Shown here: positions 15,996-39,908 of the stretch, piece by piece
Layout of the letters: every line of letters begins with the position of its first letter
Position numbering within the stretch: position 1 is the first letter of the stretch
NCBI GenBank assembly: GCA_017619975.1
Contig: JAFZRH010000071.1
Location: 1-53,996 of the forward strand
Source of the DNA: Lachnospiraceae bacterium
GTDB taxonomy: Bacteria > Bacillota > Clostridia > Lachnospirales > Lachnospiraceae
Reading direction: 5' to 3'
Length of the DNA stretch: 53,996 nucleotides
Made by a program: the position numbers and the translations under genes
Notes under the pieces: generated by a model
What the model was told of the DNA's origin: nothing
What the model saw: only the letters and a program-made list of their open reading frames with translations
The model's database searches: none

Positions 15996-17114
15996 ATGAT
16001 CAATGTGACCCGGTCCTATCTTCCGGACTTTGAAGAGTATATTGAAGAAATCAGAGATATCTGGGACAGCCACTGGCTGACCAATATGGGAGAGAAGCAC
16101 CAGGCACTGGAGCGGGGACTGGAGGCTTATTTCTCCGTCCCCCACGTCATCCTGTTTACGAACGGCCATCTGGCGCTGGAAAACGCGCTGGCCGTGCTGG
16201 ATCTGCCCCGGGGCGGGGAAGTGATCACCACCCCGTATACCTTTGCGTCCACGACGCACGCCATCGTTCGGAACGGTCTGGTGCCGGTCTTCGCGGACAT
16301 CGATCCGGAGACCTACACGCTGGATCCGAAAAAAGCGGAATCCCTGATCACGGAAAAGACCGTGGCGATCCTGCCGGTGCACGTTTACGGACACCTGGCG
16401 GACGTGGACGCGTTTGACGCGCTGGCGAAAAAGTACGGCCTCAAGCTGATCTACGACGCGGCCCACACCTTCGGGGTCCGCAAGGAAGGCTTTGCCGGCC
16501 GGCCGGGACTTTTCAGCAGCGCCTACTTCGGCGATCTTTCCATGTTCAGTTTCCATGCCACGAAGGTCTACCATACCATCGAAGGCGGCGCGCTGACCTT
16601 TGCGGCGGATGCGCTGGAGCAGCCCCTGAACGATCTGAAGAACTTCGGCATCCGCAACGCGGAGGAGGTGGCCTATATCGGCGGCAACGCCAAGATGAAT
16701 GAATTCCAGGCTGCCATGGGGCTCTGCAATCTGCGGCACGTGGACGAAGAGATCGCCCGGCGGCGGAAAGTGGCCGCGCAGTACGACGCACGGCTTTCCG
16801 GCCGGGACGGCATCGTGGTCTCGAAGCCGCAGCCGGGCGTACAGTCCAACTATGCTTACTATCCCGTTGTCTTCGACGGGTTCAAAAAAGACCGTGACCG
16901 GATCTTTGAAGAACTGAAAGCGGAGGGCATCGTGCCCCGCAAGTATTTCTATCCGCTGACCAACGATTTTGACTGTTATAAAGACTATCCGACGGCCGGG
17001 AAAGAAAAAACGCTGCTTGCGGACCATATGGCGCAGCGCGTGCTGACGCTGCCGATGTACGGCGAGCTGGCCCCGGCGGACGTGGACCGGATCTGCGATA
17101 TCATTCTGCGCTGA
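15996..17114 (+). CDS. DegT/DnrJ/EryC1/StrS family sugar aminotransferase
   Basis: This encodes 372 residues, the normal length. Family features include TNGHLALENAL (cofactor phosphate region), GGEVITTPYTFASTTHAI, VFADIDPETYTLDP, the Asp of YDAAHTFGV that contacts the PLP pyridine nitrogen, and the Schiff-base K190 in FHATKVYHTIEGG. Enzymes of this group transfer an amino group to a nucleotide-linked keto-sugar. With the following glycosyltransferase and flippase it forms a small surface-glycan set. The exact sugar cannot be told from sequence. Confidence 0.9.
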   Translation: MINVTRSYLPDFEEYIEEIRDIWDSHWLTNMGEKHQALERGLEAYFSVPHVILFTNGHLALENALAVLDLPRGGEVITTPYTFASTTHAIVRNGLVPVFADIDPETYTLDPKKAESLITEKTVAILPVHVYGHLADVDAFDALAKKYGLKLIYDAAHTFGVRKEGFAGRPGLFSSAYFGDLSMFSFHATKVYHTIEGGALTFAADALEQPLNDLKNFGIRNAEEVAYIGGNAKMNEFQAAMGLCNLRHVDEEIARRRKVAAQYDARLSGRDGIVVSKPQPGVQSNYAYYPVVFDGFKKDRDRIFEELKAEGIVPRKYFYPLTNDFDCYKDYPTAGKEKTLLADHMAQRVLTLPMYGELAPADVDRICDIILR

Positions 17115-29957: not shown

Positions 29958-30806
29958 ATGGCGCAGTGCGAGGTCTGTTTCAGACACTGTCAAATAGAAG
30001 AGGGGGCTCTCGGCTTTTGCGGCGGCAGGACCGTGCGGAACGGCCGGGTGGAAGAGTTCAATTACGGAAAGATCACGGGTCTGGCTCTGGATCCGATCGA
30101 AAAGAAGCCGCTCGCCCGCTTTTTTCCGGGGAGCCTCATCCTTTCCGTGGGCAGCTTCGGCTGCAATCTGCGCTGCCCCTTCTGCCAGAATTATGAGATC
30201 TCCTGGTCGGAAGAAGCGAAAAAGTTCGCAAAAAAAGCGGAAACGATCTCTCCGGAGGAGCTGGTAGACCTGGCGCTTGGGACCAAAAGCCGGGGCAATA
30301 TCGGCCTCGCCTTTACCTACAACGAGCCGCTCATCGGCTATGAATTCGTGCGGGACAGTGCAAAACTGGCGAAGGAAGCCGGCCTGAAGACCGTGCTGGT
30401 CACGAACGGGACCGCCGAACTGCCTGTCCTGCGCGAGCTGGCGCCGTATATCGACGCGATGAATATTGATCTGAAGGGCTTTACCGACCGTTATTACAGC
30501 AAGGTTCTGGGCGGAAGCCGGCAGATGGTCATGGCCTTCATCGAGGAGGCCGTAAAGACCGCTCATGTGGAGCTGACGACGCTGATCGTACCGGGCGAAA
30601 ACGACAGCGAAGAGGAAATGCGGGAGCTTTCCGCCTGGGTGAGCGGCTTAAGGGAACCGGACGGGGAAAGCATTCCGCTGCACATCAGCCGCTTCTTCCC
30701 GCGCTTTCACATGACGGACCGGAAAGCGACCGACGTGCGGCTCATTTACCGCCTGGTGAAGATCGCCCGCGAAAAGCTGGACTACGTATATCCGGGCAAC
30801 TGCTGA
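29958..30806 (+). CDS. AmmeMemoRadiSam system radical SAM enzyme
   Basis: This encodes 282 residues. An N-terminal Cys-rich segment (CEVCFRHCQI...GFCGGR) precedes the radical SAM motif C69-x3-C73-x2-C76 in GCNLRCPFCQN, which holds the [4Fe-4S] cluster that cleaves S-adenosylmethionine. Later IGLAFTYNEPLIGYEFV and MNIDLKGFTDRYY are the usual SAM-contact regions of this PflA-like branch; the terminal SRFFPRFHMTDR is typical. It is the partner of the Memo/AMMECR1 fusion 90 bp upstream. The substrate is unknown; modification of a protein or RNA has been suggested for the family but not shown. GGAGA lies upstream of the start. Confidence 0.9.
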   Translation: MAQCEVCFRHCQIEEGALGFCGGRTVRNGRVEEFNYGKITGLALDPIEKKPLARFFPGSLILSVGSFGCNLRCPFCQNYEISWSEEAKKFAKKAETISPEELVDLALGTKSRGNIGLAFTYNEPLIGYEFVRDSAKLAKEAGLKTVLVTNGTAELPVLRELAPYIDAMNIDLKGFTDRYYSKVLGGSRQMVMAFIEEAVKTAHVELTTLIVPGENDSEEEMRELSAWVSGLREPDGESIPLHISRFFPRFHMTDRKATDVRLIYRLVKIAREKLDYVYPGNC

Positions 30807-30841
30807 GGCAAAAAACAGACCGGAAATCTTTCGAAAAACGC

Positions 30842-30870
30842 TTGCATTTTTGCGGCGTTTTTATTATTCT
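30842..30870 (+). promoter_or_regulatory. sigma-A promoter of the lysine fermentation operon
   Basis: TTGCAT (30842-30847), 17-bp spacer, TATTCT (30865-30870). The transcript would begin near 30877, run into a stem CACATG...CATGTG (30886-30911) and then the lysine aptamer. Confidence 0.78.
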
Positions 30871-30922
30871 ATGAGATGTGAAAAGCACATGGAAGGCTTC
30901 CTTTTCATGTGTCATAACGGAA

Positions 30923-31083
30923 GATAGAGGCGCGGAGCGAAGGGTAGTCTTTCTCCTATGGAACAGGCGGTTCCGGAGAAGATGAAGGGTCGTTTCGCCG
31001 AAGGAAGACGGAAAAGCCTGCCCGTTTTCCTGGCAGCCGGGCCGAGCGCTAAGCTGCTGTCATGCCACGCATGAAGCGCTATC
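30923..31083 (+). promoter_or_regulatory. lysine riboswitch (L-box) aptamer
   Basis: The core matches the lysine aptamer: GATAGAGGCGCG at the 5' side, AAGGGTAGTC in the P2 internal loop, GTTTCGCCGAAGG, a P4 stem AGGAAGACGG/CCGTTTTCCT, and GCTGCTGTCATGC with a CATGC/GCATG hairpin. P1 is closed by GATAG (30923-30927) with CTATC (31079-31083). The TTCTCC/GGAGAA and GGAAC/GGTTCC stems form P2/P3. The aptamer senses free lysine. It stands directly before the lysine fermentation genes kal-kce-kdd-kamA-kamD-kamE, so it should control lysine breakdown, not the more usual synthesis or uptake. Confidence 0.93.
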
Positions 31084-31111
31084 GGGGAAAGAACCCTGAC
31101 GGCGCTTTTTT
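31074..31111 (+). terminator. riboswitch expression-platform terminator
   Basis: AAGCGC (31074-31079) pairs with GCGCTT (31102-31107). An upper stem joins TC-G-GGG with CCC-T-GA around the loop (31088-31093), and TTTTTT follows at 31106-31111. The 5' arm includes CTATC (31079-31083), which is also the 3' strand of aptamer helix P1, so the two structures exclude each other. Lysine binding, which stabilises P1, should therefore prevent termination. Confidence 0.85.
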
Positions 31112-31142
31112 GTGGAGTGGAGAAAGCCTGACGGCACAGAGG

Positions 31143-31294
31143 GTGTCATCCTGAGCGACGCCCGAAGGGCGGAGTCGAAGGATTCTGTGCCGCACCTCCT
31201 TGCGCGAAGCACGAGGTTCAAGATGGCGAAGCAATTTACTTTGCGCATATTGCCCCTGCGGGGCAAAGATTCCTCGTTTTGCTCGGAATGACAC
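31143..31294. repeat. family 2 element (GTGTCAT...ATGACAC) in the lysine operon leader
   Basis: A 152-bp stretch begins GTGTCATCCTGAGCG and ends GCTCGGAATGACAC, which are imperfect inverted repeats. It includes GGAGTCGAAGGATTC, also seen in the tandem units at 22607-22903. It lies between the riboswitch terminator and kal, so it is part of the transcribed 5' leader of about 480 nt. The 549-bp gap between the radical SAM gene and kal is fully explained by promoter, riboswitch and this element. No protein gene is seen in it. Confidence 0.7.
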
Positions 31295-31355
31295 GTTCAG
31301 GCAGGCGAGATACTGCAAACATCGGGTGAGATTCCCAATGATAAAGGAGGATACT

Positions 31356-31742
31356 ATGAAGTCTTTAATTCGGGTCCGCATGGGAGCGGAAGACGCGCAT
31401 TACGGCGGCAATCTGGTAGATGGCGCGCATATGCTGCACCTCTTCGGCGACGTCGCCACGGAGCTTTTGATCATGCATGACGGCGACGAAGGCCTGTTCT
31501 GCGCGTACGACAACGTGGAGTTTCTGGCACCGGTCTTTGCCGGCGATTACATCGAAGCGGAGGGCGAGATCGTGAAGGTCGGCAACACCTCCCGCAGGAT
31601 GGTTTTCGAGGCCCGGAAGGTGATCGTCCCGCGGCCGGATTTGAGTGAGTCTGCCTGCGACGTGCTGGCGGAGCCAATCGTGGTCTGCCGTGCCAGCGGC
31701 ACCTGCGTGGTCCCGAAGGAAAAGCAGCGCATCGCGCATTAA
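31356..31742 (+). CDS. kal: 3-aminobutyryl-CoA ammonia-lyase
   Basis: This encodes 128 residues from ATG 31356, which has AAAGGAGG at ideal spacing. It is a hot-dog fold protein ([42 protein letters not shown]). In lysine fermentation Kal removes ammonia from 3-aminobutyryl-CoA to give crotonyl-CoA, which then enters butyrate formation. Assignment rests on length, fold motifs and position directly before kce and kdd. It is the first gene after the lysine riboswitch and is 12 bp upstream of kce. Confidence 0.93.
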
Positions 31743-31754
31743 GGAGCGGTACTT

Positions 31755-32570
31755 ATGGAGAAGTTAATCATTACCGCGGCGATCTGCGGCGCGGAAGTGA
31801 CCAAGGAGCAGAATCCCGCGGTGCCCTATACCGTGGAGGAGATCGTGCGCGAAGCCAGGAGCGCGGTCGAAGCCGGCGCGGCCATCGTGCATCTGCATGT
31901 GCGGCGGGACGACGGCACGCCTACGCAGGACCGCGAGCGCTTCCGGGAATGCATCGACGCGATCAAAAGTAAGATCCCGGACGTGATCCTGATCCCTTCG
32001 ACGGGCGGCGCGGTCGGCATGAGCGCCGAGGAGCGCCTGCAGCCCACTGAGCTCTTCCCGGAGATGGCGACGTTAGACTGCGGCACCTGCAACTTCGGCG
32101 ATGACATCTTCGACAACACCATGCCGATGATGCGCATCTTCGGAAAGCGGATGCTGGAAAACCATATCAAGCCCGAATACGAATGCTTCGAGATGGGCCA
32201 TCTGGACACCATCCTGACGATGGCGAAGAAGGGCGAAGTGCCCGGCGCTCCGATGCAGTTCAATTTCGTTCTGGGCGTGCCCGGCTGCACGCCGGCGACC
32301 GTCGGCAACCTGGACTGGATGGTCCGGCAGATCCCGGCTGGCAGCACCTGGACCGTGACGGGCATCGGGCGGCATGCCTTCCCGATGGCGGCGGCCGGCA
32401 TCGTCATGGGCGGCAACGTCCGCGTCGGTTTTGAGGACAATCTGTATCGTTCCCGCGGTGTTTTGGCAAAGAGCAACGGGGAACTGGTGTCGAAGGTCGT
32501 GCGCCTGGCGAAGGAGCTGGGCCGGGAGATCGCGACGCCGGCGGAAGCAAGGAAGATACTGGGACTGTAG
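31755..32570 (+). CDS. kce: 3-keto-5-aminohexanoate cleavage enzyme
   Basis: This encodes 271 residues, the normal length for the BKACE family. The zinc ligands H46 and H48 are visible in AIVHLHVRRDDG, and a conserved Glu lies at E227 in VRVGFED, close to the ligand Glu reported for the family. The enzyme joins 3-keto-5-aminohexanoate with acetyl-CoA to give acetoacetate and 3-aminobutyryl-CoA, the step that splits the lysine carbon chain. The products go to the acetoacetyl-CoA synthetase at 37.9 kb and to Kal. It ends in TAG, 3 bp before a family 1 repeat. Confidence 0.95.
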   Translation: MEKLIITAAICGAEVTKEQNPAVPYTVEEIVREARSAVEAGAAIVHLHVRRDDGTPTQDRERFRECIDAIKSKIPDVILIPSTGGAVGMSAEERLQPTELFPEMATLDCGTCNFGDDIFDNTMPMMRIFGKRMLENHIKPEYECFEMGHLDTILTMAKKGEVPGAPMQFNFVLGVPGCTPATVGNLDWMVRQIPAGSTWTVTGIGRHAFPMAAAGIVMGGNVRVGFEDNLYRSRGVLAKSNGELVSKVVRLAKELGREIATPAEARKILGL

Positions 32571-32730: not shown

Positions 32731-33774
32731 ATGGAACAGTTAAAAGGCAACAAATACGGAACACACCGCGTGATCGAGCCGAAGGGCGTCCTGACGCAGG
32801 CGGCCTGGAAGATCGACAACGACATGACGAAGCATTACTCCAACGAGATCATCTGCGACGTGATCTCGCTCAATATCGATTCCGCGTCCTTCACGCAGAT
32901 CAGCGAGGTCTGCGGCGGCGACGAAACAAAGATCGGCGAGATGATCATGGGCATCGTAGCCGAGCGCGGCAAGCAGCAGAACCCGGTCACGGGCTCCGGC
33001 GGCATGTTCATCGGCAAAGTTGCCTACATCGGCGACGATTTAAAGGACCGCGACCTCAAGGTCGGCGACAAGATCGCCTCCCTGGTCAGCCTGTCCCTGA
33101 CTCCCTTAAAGATCGATAAGATCCTGGCTATCCACAAGGAGATCGACCGCGTGGATATCGTCGGGCAGGCGGTGCTCTTTGAGAGCGGTCTGTACGCAAA
33201 GCTTCCGGACGACATGTCCGAAGCCCTGGCGCTCGCGGCCCTCGACGTGGCCGGTGCGCCTGCGCAGGCGAGACGCCTCCCGAAGGAAGGCGACAGCGTG
33301 CTGATCCTGGGCGCGAACGGCAAGAGCGGCGTGCTCTGCGCCTGGGAAGCCATGAAGAAGGTCGGCCCGAACGGCAACGTGGTCGGCGTGGTCCGCAATC
33401 CGAAGCAGGTCCCGGGCCTCATGGAGCTGGGCGTGTATCATAAAGTGATCGTGGCCTCCGCTACGGAGCCGGTCGCGGTGCTGGAAGCAGCGCTCGCCGC
33501 CAACGGCGGGAAGGAATACGATCTTTCCATCAGCTGCGTGAACGTGGAAGCCTGCGAGATGAGCGCGATCCTGCCGGTCCGGGAGGGCGGCACGGTCTAC
33601 TTCTTCTCGATGGCGACGAGCTTCACGCGCGCGGCTTTGGGCGCGGAAGGCGTCGGCAAAGACATCAACATGATGGTCGGCAACGGCTACGCGAAGGACC
33701 ACGCCGAGATCACGCTGAACGTGCTGCGCGAGAATCAGAAGATCCGCGAGCTGTTCGACCGGAAATACGTATAG
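32731..33774 (+). CDS. kdd: L-erythro-3,5-diaminohexanoate dehydrogenase
   Basis: This encodes 347 residues, as expected for Kdd. A Rossmann-type NAD-binding region is seen at VLILGANGKSGVLCAWEAM (around residues 190-208), preceded by a medium-chain dehydrogenase-like N-terminal half. The enzyme oxidatively deaminates 3,5-diaminohexanoate, made by the KamA and KamDE reactions, to 3-keto-5-aminohexanoate with NAD+. This supplies ammonia and reducing power. The start has AAAGGAGAT 7 bases upstream, directly next to the repeat. It ends in TAG. Confidence 0.95.
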   Translation: MEQLKGNKYGTHRVIEPKGVLTQAAWKIDNDMTKHYSNEIICDVISLNIDSASFTQISEVCGGDETKIGEMIMGIVAERGKQQNPVTGSGGMFIGKVAYIGDDLKDRDLKVGDKIASLVSLSLTPLKIDKILAIHKEIDRVDIVGQAVLFESGLYAKLPDDMSEALALAALDVAGAPAQARRLPKEGDSVLILGANGKSGVLCAWEAMKKVGPNGNVVGVVRNPKQVPGLMELGVYHKVIVASATEPVAVLEAALAANGGKEYDLSISCVNVEACEMSAILPVREGGTVYFFSMATSFTRAALGAEGVGKDINMMVGNGYAKDHAEITLNVLRENQKIRELFDRKYV

Positions 33775-33938: not shown

Positions 33939-35189
33939 ATGAAGACCCGCAACGGTTTGTTTGCCGACGTACCCGAAGAACTTTGGAACGACTGGAAATG
34001 GCAGATCCGAAACCGCATCGAAACGGTGGAAGATCTGAAGAAGCATATTGAAATCACCCCCGAAGAGGAGGAGGGCATCCGGCAGTGCCTGGGCGTGCTG
34101 CGCATGGCCATCACCCCGTACTACCTGTCCCTGATCGATCTGAATGATCCGCACGATCCGATCCGCCGCCAGGCGATCCCGACGGCCGCCGAGCTGCACC
34201 GCTCGCCCGCGGACCTTCTGGATCCGCTGCACGAGGACACCGACTCCCCGGTCAAGGGCTTAACGCACCGCTATCCGGACCGCGTGCTGCTCCTGGTCAC
34301 GGATCAGTGCTCCATGTACTGCCGCCACTGCACCCGCCGCCGCTTTGCCGGACAGACGGATCAGGCGGTGCCCGTGGATCAGATCGACGGCTGCATCGAA
34401 TATATTAAAAATCATCCGGAGGTCCGGGACGTTCTGATCTCCGGCGGCGACCCGCTGGTGATGAGCGACGAGCGCCTGGAATATGTGATCTCTAAGGTCC
34501 GCGCGATCCCGCACGTGGAGATCGTCCGCATCGGAAGCCGCACGCCGGTCGTCATGCCGCAGCGCATCACGCCCGAGCTCTGCGCGATGCTTCGCAAATA
34601 CCATCCGATCTGGCTGAATACGCATTTCAACCATCCGAAGGAGATCACCGAAGCGTCGGCGGCCGCCTGCGCGAGACTCGCGGACGCGGGCATCCCGCTC
34701 GGCAACCAGAGCGTGCTGCTGGCCGGCGTCAACGACTGCGTTTATACCATGAAGAAGCTGGTACAGGAGCTGGTCAAGATCCGCGTGCGGCCGTATTACA
34801 TCTATCAGTGCGACCTTTCCATGGGGCTGGAGCATTTCCGCACGCCGGTCGGCAAGGGCATCGAAATCATCGAGGCGCTGCGCGGCCATACGAGCGGCTT
34901 CTGCGTGCCGACCTTCGTGGTGGATGCGCCCGGCGGCGGCGGAAAGATCCCGGTGATGCCGGACTATCTGATCTCGCAGACGCCGAAGCGCGTGATCCTG
35001 CGCAACTTCGAAGGCGTGATCACGACCTATACCGAACCCGAGAACTATAAAGAGACCTGCCAGTGCGAATACTGCCGCGGGGCGCGCGAAGGCCGCCTGG
35101 TCGGCGTAGCGGGCTTAGAGCGCGGACAGACCTTGAGCCTGGAGCCGAAGGGACTGGCGCGCACGGAACGCTGCAAGAAGGGAGAGTAA
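33939..35189 (+). CDS. kamA: lysine 2,3-aminomutase (radical SAM, PLP)
   Basis: This encodes 416 residues, the size of the Clostridium subterminale enzyme. The cluster motif is C124-x3-C128-x2-C131 (QCSMYCRHCTRRR). The PLP lysine is K336 in the PGGGGKIPVMPDY motif, one residue offset from the known numbering of C125/C129/C132 and K337. CQCEYC near the end fits the zinc-binding tail. It converts L-lysine to L-beta-lysine, the first step of fermentation. A family 1 repeat lies just upstream; kamD follows 36 bp later. Confidence 0.97.
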   Translation: MKTRNGLFADVPEELWNDWKWQIRNRIETVEDLKKHIEITPEEEEGIRQCLGVLRMAITPYYLSLIDLNDPHDPIRRQAIPTAAELHRSPADLLDPLHEDTDSPVKGLTHRYPDRVLLLVTDQCSMYCRHCTRRRFAGQTDQAVPVDQIDGCIEYIKNHPEVRDVLISGGDPLVMSDERLEYVISKVRAIPHVEIVRIGSRTPVVMPQRITPELCAMLRKYHPIWLNTHFNHPKEITEASAAACARLADAGIPLGNQSVLLAGVNDCVYTMKKLVQELVKIRVRPYYIYQCDLSMGLEHFRTPVGKGIEIIEALRGHTSGFCVPTFVVDAPGGGGKIPVMPDYLISQTPKRVILRNFEGVITTYTEPENYKETCQCEYCRGAREGRLVGVAGLERGQTLSLEPKGLARTERCKKGE

Positions 35190-35225: not shown

Positions 35226-36785
35226 ATGGAAAGTAAAATCGGATTAAATCAGGCGCTGGTGGATCAGGCCAGGACGTCCGCCGCTCACGTGGCGGAGGAC
35301 ACGCAGCGCTTTATCGACCGGCACACGACGGTCGCGGTCGAGCGGACGGTCTGCCGCCTTTTGGGCATCGACGGCGTGAACGAGGTCGAGGTCCCCATGC
35401 CGAACGTTGTGGTGGATCATCTGCTGGCCAGGGATCTTTTGGCGGACGGCGCGGCGCTTAGGCTCGGCAACGCCATGGCGGAACTTTCGCTTTCCCCGCA
35501 GGAGATCGCGGAAGGCATCGACAAAGGCGAGATCGATCTGGCTGCCCTGCCCATGCACGCGGAGGAGGAGATCCGCGCGGCCTTACAGCCCGTGGTGGAA
35601 GCGACGCTTTCGCGCATCCGCTCGAACGTCGCGAAGCGGAACGAGTACCTTGCCTGTTTCGGCGACAAGAAAGGCCCGTACATCTATCTGATCGTTGCGA
35701 CCGGCAACATTTTTGAAGATATCACGCAGGCCAAGGCGGCGGCCAAGCAGGGCGCGGATGTCATCGCCGTGATCCGGACCACCGGCCAGAGCCTTCTCGA
35801 CTTCGTGCCCTACGGCGCGACCACCGAGGGCTTCGGCGGCACCTACGCGACGCAGGAGAACTTCCGCCTGATGCGCGCCGCCCTGGACGAGGTGGGAGAG
35901 GAGCAGCACCGCTACATCCGCCTGTGCAACTACTGCTCGGGCCTTTGCATGCCGGAGATCGCGGCCATGGGCGCCTTAGAGCGCCTGGACGTGATGCTGA
36001 ACGATGCGCTCTACGGCATCCTTTTCCGCGACATCAACATGCAGCGGACCATCATCGACCAGTATTTCTCACGTGTCATCAACAGCTTCGCGGGCGTCAT
36101 CATCAACACGGGCGAGGACAATTACCTCACCACCGCCGACGCCTATGAAGAGGCGCATACCGTGCTGGCCAGCCAGTTCTTGAACGAGCAGTTCGCCGTG
36201 CAGGCGGGCCTGCCGGAGGAGCAGATGGGCCTCGGCCACGCCTTCGAGATGGACCCCGATCTGCCGAATGCCTTCCTCTACGAGCTGGCGCAGGCGCAGA
36301 TGGCCCGGGAGATCTTCCCGAAAGCGCCGCTCAAATACATGCCGCCGACCAAGTTCATGACCGGCAACATCTTCCGCGGACATGTGCAGGACGCCCTCTT
36401 CAACATGGTGACGATCCTCACGAACCAGAAGATCCACCTGTTGGGCATGATGACGGAAGCCATCCATACGCCGTTCATGAGCGACCGCGCGCTCGCGATC
36501 GAGAACGCGCAGTACATCTTCCGCACCATGGCGGATCTCGGAAACGACATCGAGTTTAAGGAAGGCGGCATCATTCGGACGCGCGCGGCCGAGGTGCTGC
36601 AGAAAGCGGCGGACCTGCTTGCCGAGATCGAGCGGATCGGCCTCTTCGCAACGCTGGAAAAGGGCGTGTTCGCGGACATCAAACGGCCGCTGGACGGCGG
36701 CAAGGGCCTGGACGGCGTCACGAAGAAATCGGACCGCTACTTTAACCCCTTCATTGAAGAGATGCGGAAGGAGGTGCGCGCATGA
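35226..36785 (+). CDS. kamD: lysine 5,6-aminomutase alpha subunit
   Basis: This encodes 519 residues, the usual length of KamD, a TIM-barrel that carries the substrate and adenosyl pocket of the adenosylcobalamin- and PLP-dependent aminomutase. Recognisable stretches include SKIGLNQALVDQAR-like N-terminal residues, YIYLIVATGNIFEDITQAKA, DVIAVIRTTGQSLLDFVPYG and CNYCSGLCMPEIAAMGALERLD. With KamE it moves the terminal amino group of L-beta-lysine from C6 to C5, giving 3,5-diaminohexanoate. It overlaps kamE by 4 bases (ATGA). The enzyme is prone to inactivation, which explains the KamBC reactivase encoded 7 kb upstream. Confidence 0.97.
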   Translation: MESKIGLNQALVDQARTSAAHVAEDTQRFIDRHTTVAVERTVCRLLGIDGVNEVEVPMPNVVVDHLLARDLLADGAALRLGNAMAELSLSPQEIAEGIDKGEIDLAALPMHAEEEIRAALQPVVEATLSRIRSNVAKRNEYLACFGDKKGPYIYLIVATGNIFEDITQAKAAAKQGADVIAVIRTTGQSLLDFVPYGATTEGFGGTYATQENFRLMRAALDEVGEEQHRYIRLCNYCSGLCMPEIAAMGALERLDVMLNDALYGILFRDINMQRTIIDQYFSRVINSFAGVIINTGEDNYLTTADAYEEAHTVLASQFLNEQFAVQAGLPEEQMGLGHAFEMDPDLPNAFLYELAQAQMAREIFPKAPLKYMPPTKFMTGNIFRGHVQDALFNMVTILTNQKIHLLGMMTEAIHTPFMSDRALAIENAQYIFRTMADLGNDIEFKEGGIIRTRAAEVLQKAADLLAEIERIGLFATLEKGVFADIKRPLDGGKGLDGVTKKSDRYFNPFIEEMRKEVRA

Positions 36786-37570
36786 GTTCCGGACTCTACG
36801 ATATGTCCGCCAAGGACTTTGACAAGACGCTGGATTTAACGAAGCTGAAACCCTACGGCGACACCATGAACGACGGCAAGGTGCAGCTTTCCTTTACGCT
36901 GCCGGTCCCGAACAACGACCGGGGCATGGAGGCCGCTCGCATCTACAGCCGCAAAATGGGCCTCGAGGAGCCGAACGTCGCCTACGCCCGCGCGCTGGAC
37001 AAGGAATTCACCTTCTATGTGGTTTACGGTTCCTGCTCGCATACCATCGACTACACGAAGATCCAGATCCACGCCATCGAAGACGTCTCCATGGAGATGG
37101 ACGAGGTGGACGAATATATTAAAGAGCATATCGGGCGGAAGATCGTGGTGCTTGGCGCTTCGACCGGCACCGACGCGCACACGGTCGGCATCGACGCGAT
37201 CATGAACCGCAAGGGCTTCGCGGGCCACTACGGCCTGGAGCGCTACGAGATGATCGAAGCCTACAACATGGGCGCCCAGGTTCCGAACGAGGAATTCCTC
37301 GCGAAGGCGAATGAGATCAATGCAGACGTGCTCTTAGTCAGCCAGACGGTCACACAGAAGAACATCCACATCATCAACCTGACCGAGCTGATCGAGCTTG
37401 CGGAGGCCGAAGGCCTGCGCGCCAAATGCGTTATGTGCTGCGGCGGCGCGCGCATCACGCACGAGCTGGCGAAAGAATTGGGCTTCGACGCCGGCTTCGG
37501 GCCTGGGAAGTTCGCGAACGACGTCGCGACCTTCTGCGTGAAGGAAATGGTGAGGAGAGGGATGAAATAA
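36782..37570 (+). CDS. kamE: lysine 5,6-aminomutase beta subunit
   Basis: This encodes 262 residues. The B12-binding motif D131-x-H133-x2-G136 (GTDAHTVGID) supplies the axial histidine to cobalt. K144 in NRKGFAGHYG is the PLP-binding lysine; both positions coincide with the numbers known for the Clostridium sticklandii enzyme (H133 and K144 of beta). A C-terminal Rossmann-like B12 domain follows, ending with CCGGARITHELAKELG. It is coupled to kamD by a 4-base overlap. No clear terminator follows; the repeat-rich gap and the synthetase gene come next. Confidence 0.97.
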   Translation: MSSGLYDMSAKDFDKTLDLTKLKPYGDTMNDGKVQLSFTLPVPNNDRGMEAARIYSRKMGLEEPNVAYARALDKEFTFYVVYGSCSHTIDYTKIQIHAIEDVSMEMDEVDEYIKEHIGRKIVVLGASTGTDAHTVGIDAIMNRKGFAGHYGLERYEMIEAYNMGAQVPNEEFLAKANEINADVLLVSQTVTQKNIHIINLTELIELAEAEGLRAKCVMCCGGARITHELAKELGFDAGFGPGKFANDVATFCVKEMVRRGMK

Positions 37571-37860
37571 CGGCTGCGAAAGGCTTTACCGCCCCGATAA
37601 AACTTTTCTCGGCCCGCTTCGGCGGCCTTCCGGAATAAAAACGTCCAAGGTCAGGCCGCCTCAAGGGGCAACTCGAAAAGTTTTATTCCGACGCTCGGCC
37701 CGCCTCAAGGGGCAAATCCGCGGGGCTCGTAAACGAGGCGCGCGTTGCGGAAAAGTTTTATCAGCGCGCTCGGCCGGAGGGGCATTCGGGAGAATTGTTC
37801 GGCGCGCTCGGCCAGAAGGAGAATTGTCCGGCGCTCGGCCGGAACTGTACCGTTATTTCA
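37571..37860. repeat. degenerate direct and inverted repeats in the kamE-synthetase gap
   Basis: The 310-bp gap holds several short repeats. ATAAAACTTTTC (37597-37608) appears inverted as GAAAAGTTTTAT at 37675-37686 and 37750-37761. GGCC(C)GCCTCAAGGGGCAA occurs twice, near 37653 and 37699. GAGAATTGT followed by CGGCG...CTCGGCC occurs twice, near 37790 and 37820. CGCTCGGCC occurs five times. No open frame of interest or clear terminator is seen. It may be a decayed set of insertions. The synthetase ribosome site lies just after it. Confidence 0.6.
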
Positions 37861-37880
37861 AGGATGAAGGAGATAAGAAA

Positions 37881-39908
37881 ATGCAGAAGTTGCTTTGGAA
37901 ACCCTCAGAAGAGGTAAAGAACGGCTGCCGCATGGCGGATTTTATGCGTTATGTCAACGCGCGCTGCGGAAAGGATTTTCACGAATATAAGGAACTGTAT
38001 CAGTGGTCGATCGAGGATATCCCGGCCTTTTGGGATGCGCTCTGGCACTATTTTGACGTGATCTGTTCGAAACCCTACGATACGGTCGTGGACGACTTAA
38101 ACCGCTTCCCCGGTGCGAAATGGTTCGTCGGCGCGAAGCTGAACTACGCGGAAAATATCCTGCGTTTCTGCGACCGGGACGGCACGGCCATCACGTTCCG
38201 CGGAGAGGATTTCGTAAGGACGGAGCTTTCCTGGCGGGAGCTCAAGCAGACGGTGATCCGTCTGGCTGCGGCCTTCCGTAAGGAAGGCTTAAAGCCCGGC
38301 GATACCGTGGCAGGGTACCTGCCGAACCTGCCGGAGACCATCATCGCGATGCTGGCGGCTGCGGCCGTCGGGGCTGTCTGGTGTTCCTGCGCGACGGATA
38401 TCGGCGCGAACGCGGCGGTGGACCGGCTGGGGCAGACCGAACCGAAGATCCTCGTCACGACAGACGGCTACCGCTATAAGGGGAAGACCTTCTCCTCCCT
38501 GGAGAACGTGAAGGAGATGGCGGGCCGCATCCCGTCCCTGCAGCGCATCCTGGTGGTGCACTATGCGGGCGAGCCAGAGATCGCCGGCATCCCGAACGCC
38601 GTCCTGTTCACCGACTACCTGGAACAGGGGCAGCCTGAGGACTCTTGCCCTCCCCCGGACGCGGGGGAGGGTGCCGCCGAAGGCGGCAGGAGGGGGCGAC
38701 TTGAGGACTCCTTCTCCTTCGAGCAGGTCGAGGCCTCTCACCCGCTTTTCGTCATGTTTTCCTCCGGCACGACCGGAAAGCCCAAATGCATGGTGCAGTC
38801 CCACGCCGGCATTCTGATGAACCAGTTAAAGGAACTGACCCTGCACTGCAATATTCAGGACGGCAGCAAGCTTCTCTACATCACCACCTGCAGCTGGATG
38901 ATGTGGAACTGGCAGGCCGCCGCGCTCGGCACCGGTTCGGAGTTGGTCCTGTACGACGGCAACCCGTCCTATCCGGACGATGCCGCCATCTGGAAGGTAC
39001 TGGAAGAAGAGAAGGTCACGGATTTCGGCCTTTCCGCCAGCTATATCCACATGCTGATCGCGCACGGATTCTCCCCGAAGGAGCACGCGGATCTGTCCGC
39101 GCTCCGTGCCATCTCCCAGACCGGTTCCGCGTTATCCGACGCGGGCTGGGACTTCGTCTACCGTGAGATCAAGGAAGACTACCACTTCAATTCCATCGCC
39201 GGCGGCACGGACATCAACGGTTGCTTCGGCATCGGCAACATGATGATCCCGGTGTACAGCGGAGAGCTGGCGGCCTTCGGTCTCGGAGAAAAGGTGGAAT
39301 GCTACGATGATAACGGAAAGCCCATCCGCGACCGTGAGGGCGAACTGGTCTGCGAAAAGCCCATCCCCTCCATGCCGCTGTATTTCTGGAACGATCCGAC
39401 CGGAGAACGCTACCGGAATGCGTATTTCGGCGTCTATCCCGGCGTCTGGCGCCACGGCGACTATGTGATCGTGCACGGCAATACCGGGGGTTTAACCTTC
39501 TGCGGCCGGAGCGATTCGGTCTTAAAGCCTTCGGGCGTGCGCATCGGTACGGCGGAGATCTACAATCAGGTCAACAACCTGCCGGAGGTGGAGGATTCCC
39601 TGGCTGTCGGGCAGGATTACCACGGCGATCAGCGGATCATCCTCTTCGTCAAATGCCAGCCGGGGTACGTCCTGGACGACGCGCTCATCAAAAAGATCAA
39701 GACCACTCTGCGCACCAAGGCCTCGCCGCGCCACGTGCCGGCAGTGATCCTGGAAACGCCGGAGATCCCCGTGACCCTAAACGGCAAAAAGGTGGAAGGC
39801 GCCGTGACGAATATCCTGAACGGCCGGCCGGTCGGCAACCGGGACGCGCTCGGCAACCCGGACAGTCTGGCTTTCTATACGGCCTGCCTGGAAATCCTGA
39901 AGGAATAG
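37881..39908 (+). CDS. acetoacetyl-CoA synthetase (AMP-forming) with a repeat-derived insertion
   Basis: This encodes 675 residues from ATG 37881 behind AAGGAGAT. It belongs to the acyl-CoA synthetase superfamily: the AMP-binding P-loop FSSGTTGKPK at 293-302, AGGTDINGCFGI (A5-type motif), HGDYVIVHGNTGG, GRSDSVLKPSGVRIGTAEIY and the C-terminal NGKKVEGAV with the catalytic Lys. The length and N-terminal PSEEVKNGCRMADFMRYVN fit acetoacetyl-CoA synthetase. It would activate the acetoacetate made by Kce, taking the role that a CoA-transferase (AtoDA) plays in other lysine fermenters. Residues 256-277 come from an inserted palindromic element, 16 residues before the P-loop. Confidence 0.88.
   Translation: MQKLLWKPSEEVKNGCRMADFMRYVNARCGKDFHEYKELYQWSIEDIPAFWDALWHYFDVICSKPYDTVVDDLNRFPGAKWFVGAKLNYAENILRFCDRDGTAITFRGEDFVRTELSWRELKQTVIRLAAAFRKEGLKPGDTVAGYLPNLPETIIAMLAAAAVGAVWCSCATDIGANAAVDRLGQTEPKILVTTDGYRYKGKTFSSLENVKEMAGRIPSLQRILVVHYAGEPEIAGIPNAVLFTDYLEQGQPEDSCPPPDAGEGAAEGGRRGRLEDSFSFEQVEASHPLFVMFSSGTTGKPKCMVQSHAGILMNQLKELTLHCNIQDGSKLLYITTCSWMMWNWQAAALGTGSELVLYDGNPSYPDDAAIWKVLEEEKVTDFGLSASYIHMLIAHGFSPKEHADLSALRAISQTGSALSDAGWDFVYREIKEDYHFNSIAGGTDINGCFGIGNMMIPVYSGELAAFGLGEKVECYDDNGKPIRDREGELVCEKPIPSMPLYFWNDPTGERYRNAYFGVYPGVWRHGDYVIVHGNTGGLTFCGRSDSVLKPSGVRIGTAEIYNQVNNLPEVEDSLAVGQDYHGDQRIILFVKCQPGYVLDDALIKKIKTTLRTKASPRHVPAVILETPEIPVTLNGKKVEGAVTNILNGRPVGNRDALGNPDSLAFYTACLEILKE
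38636..38710. repeat. family 1 half element inserted in frame in the synthetase gene, with 9-bp target duplication
   Basis: TGAGGACTC at 38636-38644 is repeated exactly at 38702-38710. Between them lie 57 bp made of a CCCTCCCCC/GGGGGAGGG stem and a GCCGCC/GGCGGC stem, matching the left half of the full family 1 copies. Insert plus one duplicate is 66 bp, so 22 codons are added without a frameshift or stop. The encoded residues (CPPPDAGEGAAEGGRRGRL, then EDS) are low complexity and lie in a loop before the AMP-binding motif. Confidence 0.9.

Follow-up and report, generated by a model that had tools for sequence, protein, structure and literature searches.

A predicted lysine-activated transcription switch ahead of a lysine-fermentation gene set in a Lachnospiraceae bacterium

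The adenine pbuE riboswitch is an ON switch in which the 3' strand of the P1 helix lies within the terminator, with no separate antiterminator. Lysine riboswitches of the lysC type (RF00168) are OFF switches with a separate terminator and antiterminator. Repression by lysine has been demonstrated in B. subtilis and E. coli, and lysine riboswitches have been described in C. difficile (PMC11477304). Lysine riboswitches with ON logic, in which part of the terminator is buried, were discussed in 2007 with reference to Rodionov 2003 (PMC2258182), and in 2017 lysine riboswitches at kal and kce were described as positively regulated in C. sticklandii, F. nucleatum and Thermoanaerobacter (PMC5584792). 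The novelty implied by the initial annotation of the locus studied here was therefore overstated, since ON logic was already in these two papers; our switch adds to an already predicted kind, and its mechanism is supported rather than new. We found no biochemical test of a natural lysine-ON riboswitch in the open-licence literature, and the available text of PMC3766115 and PMC7160235 contains nothing on lysine ON logic.

The stretch of DNA that we analyzed (the window) comprises 53,996 nt of a Lachnospiraceae bacterium (GCA_017619975.1, contig JAFZRH010000071.1, positions 1 to 53,996); the features described between 30842 and 39908 all lie on the plus strand. The kal-kce locus of C. sticklandii, kal of F. 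nucleatum and pspF3-kal-kce of Thermoanaerobacter resemble this locus in aptamer, lysine-fermentation genes and proposed positive control (PMC5584792). Compared with those cases by their description, the window switch precedes the whole kal-kce-kdd-kamA-kamD-kamE set, and the overlap between P1 and the terminator is here spelled out and counted over 63 leaders. The lysC-type riboswitches share the aptamer class of the window and have the opposite, OFF logic; their separate terminator and antiterminator appear here in the second riboswitch of relatives from the same genus. The window leader is predicted to work like pbuE, differing in aptamer and ligand, and is not a member of that class.

A full-length match to the Rfam lysine riboswitch covariance model (RF00168) was found at 30917-31089, scoring 72 bits (gathering score 30; E = 6.4e-17), confirming the aptamer that had been proposed at 30923-31083. 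It is the only lysine riboswitch found in its own genome, the assembly of which is 94% complete. P1 is formed as originally described, by GATAG at 30923-30927 and CTATC at 31079-31083. The 5' side of the P2 internal loop (30941-30946) reads AGGGUA, where the other lysine aptamers examined have AGUA with one additional base ahead of it, and CAGGC in L2 (30964-30968) is complementary to GCCTG in L3 (31016-31020), a possible kissing loop by complementarity alone. In an alignment of 13 leaders from the genus, the P1-P5 fold had 93.2% of 709 cells paired, with lower values for P3 (84.8%) and the tip of P2 (75%). Changes on both sides were seen in 25 of 55 pairs and the covariation score was 0.333 versus 0.168 in shuffled alignments, values that none of 500 shuffles reached, and the aptamer exceeded shuffles and slid controls on every measure. 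P5 is invariant in these 13 leaders and hence silent on covariation.

A strict consensus scan of 30780-31400 found no terminator and no promoter, which we explain by the interrupted terminator stem and a weak −35 box. Because of this result, the terminator was assessed by folding against shuffled sequences. The intrinsic terminator claimed at 31074-31111 was recovered as a hairpin at 31074-31107 followed by a U tract at 31106-31111. Its 13 pairs are interrupted by a single A-C mismatch (31081-31100), and its minimum free energy (MFE) is −20.1 kcal/mol, compared with −7.7 ± 2.25 for 200 dinucleotide shuffles (z = −5.5; 0/200 as good). The hairpin starts inside the aptamer, and six U directly follow the stem. 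Its 5' arm includes the 3' strand of P1, CTATC at 31079-31083, which is the pbuE-like, ON-type arrangement; a lysC-like layout is not seen in the window, where the strongest U-tract hairpin overlaps P1.

P1 and the terminator exclude each other because CTATC belongs to both. We folded transcripts of increasing length: those ending at 31083-31101 (every second base) had MFE structures with all five P1 pairs, whereas those ending at 31103 onward had no P1 pairs and 8-11 of 11 terminator pairs. The two were never both complete in this series, in line with the mutual exclusion that had been proposed. For the full leader, the terminator state (−82.3 kcal/mol) lies about 8 kcal/mol below the P1 state (−74.4 kcal/mol).

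We regard lysine-activated transcription as by far the best reading of this leader, and assign a probability of roughly 90% to a lysine-activated transcription switch ahead of kal-kce-kdd-kamA-kamD-kamE. RNA polymerase would transcribe the aptamer first. Lysine bound by the time position 31083 is made would hold P1 closed and deny CTATC (31079-31083) to the terminator, and closed P1 would allow read-through into kal-kce-kdd-kamA-kamD-kamE. In the absence of lysine, P1 would be weak, and the growing 3' arm (31101-31107) would capture CTATC and its neighbours; the terminator so formed would stop transcription at the U tract (31106-31111) and keep the gene run off. We infer the ligand (L-lysine), sufficiently rapid binding and the direction of the response. 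Since the fold model favours the terminator state by about 8 kcal/mol, the outcome probably depends on kinetics and is settled while some 20 nt are transcribed; at equilibrium, lysine might fail to hold P1. The adenine pbuE switch is also decided kinetically.

The opposite logic would be a classical OFF switch, in which lysine-bound P1 permits the terminator and an antiterminator forms in its absence, for example through pairing of AGCGCT at 31045-31050 with 31075-31080. The initial annotation had raised this helix as a caution. The motif is indeed present and can form the pairing, the nested fold (−77.0 kcal/mol) falls between the terminator and P1 states, and 46 of 67 other lysine riboswitches have a strongest hairpin that stands apart from P1. 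However, P1 occupies the 5' arm of the window terminator, so an RNA with closed P1 cannot form it, and only 8 of 13 genus leaders retain AGCGC in L4. The helix would cost P4 and would block, not favour, the terminator; OFF logic by way of the L4 helix was rejected on these grounds. Repression of a lysine-degradation operon by lysine would also make little metabolic sense. Taken as a whole, we consider an OFF switch extremely improbable.

A likely promoter, read from the sequence, lies at 30842-30870 (TTGCAT at 30842-30847, a 17-nt spacer and TATTCT at 30865-30870), and all 13 genus leaders have a match to the loose pattern TTGNNN, 16-17 nt, TANNNT ahead of the aptamer, counted with no shuffled control. 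The MFE structure of 30880-31115 contains a 5' leader hairpin at 30885-30912, and similar-looking inverted repeats are visible by eye at this position in several genus leaders. Between the terminator and kal lies an interspersed repeat (31115-31320) with 43 matches in its own genome, itself counted and most of them partial. The aptamer ends 267 nt before kal in the window, compared with 36-81 nt in the 10 genus leaders that have kal next; by this spacing, the repeat is absent from those 10 leaders.

All six gene names given initially hold, with every product above its NCBIfam equivalog cut-off. The run starts with kal (3-aminobutyryl-CoA ammonia lyase, 31356-31742, with AAAGGAGG at 31343-31350; NF052388, 197.6 bits, cut-off 160), followed by kce (3-keto-5-aminohexanoate cleavage enzyme, 31755-32570; NF052387, 433.2 bits, cut-off 382), kdd (L-erythro-3,5-diaminohexanoate dehydrogenase, 32731-33774; NF052381, 260.3 bits, cut-off 200) and kamA (lysine 2,3-aminomutase, 33939-35189; TIGR03820, 627.1 bits, cut-off 525.4). 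The alpha and beta subunits of lysine 5,6-aminomutase are encoded by kamD (35226-36785; NF052384, 917.9 bits, cut-off 600) and kamE (36782-37570; NF052385, 398 bits, cut-off 280), and an acetoacetate-CoA ligase gene (37824-39908; TIGR01217, 783.3 bits, cut-off 520.9) is possibly the last of the run. Elsewhere in the window, a ribosomal protein L10 leader was found at 1095-1228 (RF00557, 56.1 bits).

The distance to kal bears on another explanation, namely that translation or RNA stability is the main target of the switch and that the hairpin is an inefficient terminator. The consensus scanner misses the window hairpin, and in three genus relatives (G302, G306 and G308) a few nt separate the hairpin from the ribosome-binding site behind it and the U tract is broken up, as this explanation would have it. 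In the window, by contrast, kal has its ribosome-binding site some 230 nt farther downstream, outside the hairpin, and the six U stand directly after the stem. We therefore judge a main effect on translation or stability to be very unlikely, with lysine-activated transcription the preferred reading.

Among 16 genomes of the genus, Kdd was found in 12 and at least one lysine riboswitch in 14. Of the 12 Kdd-bearing genomes, 11 have a lysine riboswitch no more than 2 kb upstream of Kdd; in the twelfth (G309), it precedes kamA on another contig than Kdd. G307, where no Kdd was found, also has a riboswitch before kamA and was assigned to the kam group for that reason. In the 13 genus leaders, 94.5% of the terminator cells are paired and the covariation score is 0.260 versus 0.153 in shuffles (0/500 as high). 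The terminator stands above the shuffles in cells paired, cells changed on both sides and covariation score; only three of its pairs are changed on both sides, a number that 357 of 500 shuffles reach, and its six further pair types are reached by 498 of 500. The outermost P1 pair, the sole varying one, changes on both sides (A-U in 6, G-C in 5 and G-U in 2 of the 13), and the base of this pair that is shared with the terminator retains its terminator partner in 13 of 13 leaders.

The genus also supplies riboswitches of the other layout. Besides the kam-linked one, G302, G306 and G308 each carry an additional lysine riboswitch with a separate terminator, in which the region of the P1 3' strand can base-pair with the terminator's 5' arm to give an antiterminator duplex (−16.3 to −18.5 kcal/mol), and the MFE structure holds P1 and the separate terminator together. 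By sequence and folding, these second riboswitches have the classical OFF layout, and L057, L058 and L059 serve as the OFF-layout contrast leaders to the window. In the C127 riboswitch of G305, a separate terminator forms, yet the MFE structure lacks P1. The gene after this riboswitch and the gene after the second riboswitch of G306 belong to the Na+/H+-antiporter family, and the gene after the C71 riboswitch of G305 to the dihydrodipicolinate-synthetase family. On a single contig, G342 carries a kam-linked riboswitch and, 16 kb away, another with a separate hairpin.

We then looked beyond the genus. Kdd was searched in 398 genomes of the phylum and matched in 87; weak partial matches (G345, G487, G509, G599 and G703), the window's own genome and a fragment (G563) were dropped before the riboswitch search. 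In the resulting evenly drawn sample, a same-strand lysine riboswitch was found in the 8 kb upstream of Kdd in 6 of 80 carriers, under strict filters that lose weak matches. For named genomes, the best 80 Kdd loci of a longer list were examined with a riboswitch model (R1) that includes kam leaders, and 46 had an upstream lysine riboswitch on the same strand, all of them among the 70 loci with at least 1.8 kb of upstream sequence. Carriers include Intestinimonas, Flavonifractor, Clostridium, Vallitalea and two Anaerolineaceae. Near relatives of the window Kdd thus often have this arrangement, which is infrequent overall. Rfam's own model, run on 33 of the 63 kam leaders retained, confirmed 31 (13 from the genus, 8 from the phylum and 10 from named genomes) and missed L207 and L208.

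With duplicates removed (L143, L144, L145 and L150, which duplicate genus genomes), the comparison set comprised 63 kam-linked leaders and 67 other lysine riboswitches, the latter all lacking a kam gene as their immediate downstream neighbour. The nearest gene matching one of the window after the kam switches is kal, kce, kdd or kamA, 36-424 nt on, with G562 (3.9 kb to the nearest matched gene) as the sole exception. Pfam analysis of 10 genes behind the 67 others assigned three to the dihydrodipicolinate synthetase family, three to the Na+/H+ antiporter family, and one each to the pyridoxal-dependent decarboxylase, amino acid kinase, semialdehyde dehydrogenase and amino acid permease families. 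In a lax test, any U-tract hairpin covering the P1 3' strand was counted, giving 61/63 kam-linked leaders versus 15/67 others. Several of these 15 are weak hairpins, so we made a strict count of leaders whose strongest terminator-like hairpin contains the P1 3' strand (dG ≤ −12, length ≤ 60), and obtained 54/63 versus 1/67. Across six settings, the ranges were 52-55/63 and 0-4/67. The Fisher p value at the quoted setting is 8e-26, and since the leaders are related it does not count independent events. Computation thus shows the aptamer, the strand common to P1 and the terminator, the loss of P1 once the terminator forms, and the conservation of this geometry, which together support the ON logic first proposed from the window leader, with the lysine response following by inference.

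Nine of the 63 kam leaders fail the strict test, and seven of the nine still have a P1-overlapping hairpin. They include L188 from Intestinimonas, in which the P1-overlapping terminator reaches −27.8 kcal/mol and another hairpin scores better. In L197 and L205, the P1-overlapping hairpin is present with no U tract after it. In the table of dual pairing over the 63 leaders, the P1 row of L180 is shifted by one base and is to be disregarded, and the same offset applies to L180 in the overlap counts. As a separate observation, four Clostridium leaders (L197, L205, L219 and L194) have a P1-overlapping hairpin with no clean U tract, followed by another hairpin, and may be three-part ON switches. 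Lysine 5,6-aminomutase requires B12, and in one Anaerolineaceae locus (L213) a cobalamin riboswitch (16869-17006, 43.5 bits) lies downstream of the kam genes.

In a FastTree phylogeny of the 130 aptamers, all 63 kam-linked members fall on one side of one branch (support 0.92), corresponding to one label change compared with at least 35 in 200 shuffles. The split stays when P1 and P5 are left out (63/63), with a support of 0; P2 alone places 60 of 62 kam-linked aptamers together (support 0.88), and P3-P4 alone 57 of 62 plus one other (support 0.88). The sequences are short and the sampling is uneven, so the tree carries limited weight, and a single origin of the group would mean that the 54 of 63 are not independent cases. 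The groups are also separated by one alignment column in the P2 internal loop, a loop of sarcin-ricin type described as highly conserved in lysine riboswitches (PMC2258182) and typical of, though not required for, RF00168 membership. The base before GUA (30943 in the window) is G in 60 of 63 kam-linked aptamers (exceptions L205, L211 and L213) and A in 67 of 67 others, and the 5' side of the loop is one base shorter in 61 of 63. The window leader carries the altered loop (30943-30946). A kam-linked group that stands apart from the 67 others, with an altered P2 internal loop, looks new.

The altered loop could change ligand affinity or specificity. This raises the alternative that the ON logic holds but the ligand is a pathway intermediate, for instance beta-lysine or D-lysine, in place of L-lysine; the separate grouping and the P2 difference are what such a change of ligand might leave behind. 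Against it, each of the motifs AGAGG, GC, GCCGAA, CTGTC and GCT is either invariant or conserved at 90% or more across 24 aptamers from both groups, and the altered loop lies outside them. We accordingly hold another ligand to be very improbable and retain L-lysine as the proposed effector.

Some kam leaders carry a further element, a second copy of the closing strand of the aptamer 50-110 nt on. Our first search pattern, devised with examples already in view and fitted to kam strands, gave 12/61 kam leaders; for a neutral count, we took the 12-nt closing strand of each individual leader and sought it within 260 nt. With at most two mismatches, a second copy was again found in 12/61 kam leaders (L175, L195, L152, L190, L192, L167, L170, L174, L183, L172, L155 and L136; the count leaves out the first aptamers of two tandem leaders, G620a and G663a) versus 1/67 others, and with at most three, specificity was lost (19 kam versus 9 others). 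The second copy opens another U-tract hairpin in 10 of the 12 by script, and in L190 and L192 such a hairpin was seen by eye only. It pairs better with the P5 5' arm of its own aptamer (−6.6 kcal/mol) than with those of other leaders (−4.4 kcal/mol; 0/5000 permutations), a match that would also be expected from plain duplication. The repeated strand could give each aptamer two serial decision points, or could be a plain duplication. A closing-strand repeat before a second hairpin in 12 of 61 leaders looks new; the window leader has no second copy.

Fourteen double lysine riboswitches have been reported (PMC9481103), and two of our leaders are alike, whereas the window has one aptamer. L136 (1313-1495 and 1576-1757) and L137 (9205-9022 and 8976-8794), from two genomes of one genus, have tandem complete lysine riboswitches before kdd, each aptamer with its own P1-overlapping hairpin, and L136 has a third hairpin. 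Taking these observations together, we tentatively propose, at somewhat less than even odds, that the kam-linked aptamers, the window's included, form a distinct subclass of single origin, with GGUA in place of AGUA and a dedicated ON logic, serving lysine fermentation in many Bacillota and some Anaerolineaceae, and that in some members, the window's not among them, a repeated closing strand could let one aptamer gate two serial terminators.

The lysine riboswitches cited as experimentally proven in PMC11477304 are OFF switches, and the lysine-ON versions described as functional in PMC10974012 were obtained by laboratory selection. The window leader and the 62 like it are candidates for compact, naturally occurring lysine-ON switches that have OFF-layout partners within the genus, and these matched ON/OFF pairs offer a way to test how one aptamer class drives opposite outputs. 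The leader type of the window also occurs in an Intestinimonas metagenome genome (L188). In Intestinimonas AF211, lysine-pathway proteins were about 10-fold higher on lysine than on glucose plus acetate, with Kal not detected, and the word riboswitch is absent from the available text of that paper (PMC4697335). Overall, our findings suggest that lysine, acting through RNA, directly controls its own conversion to butyrate in Intestinimonas and similar gut bacteria.
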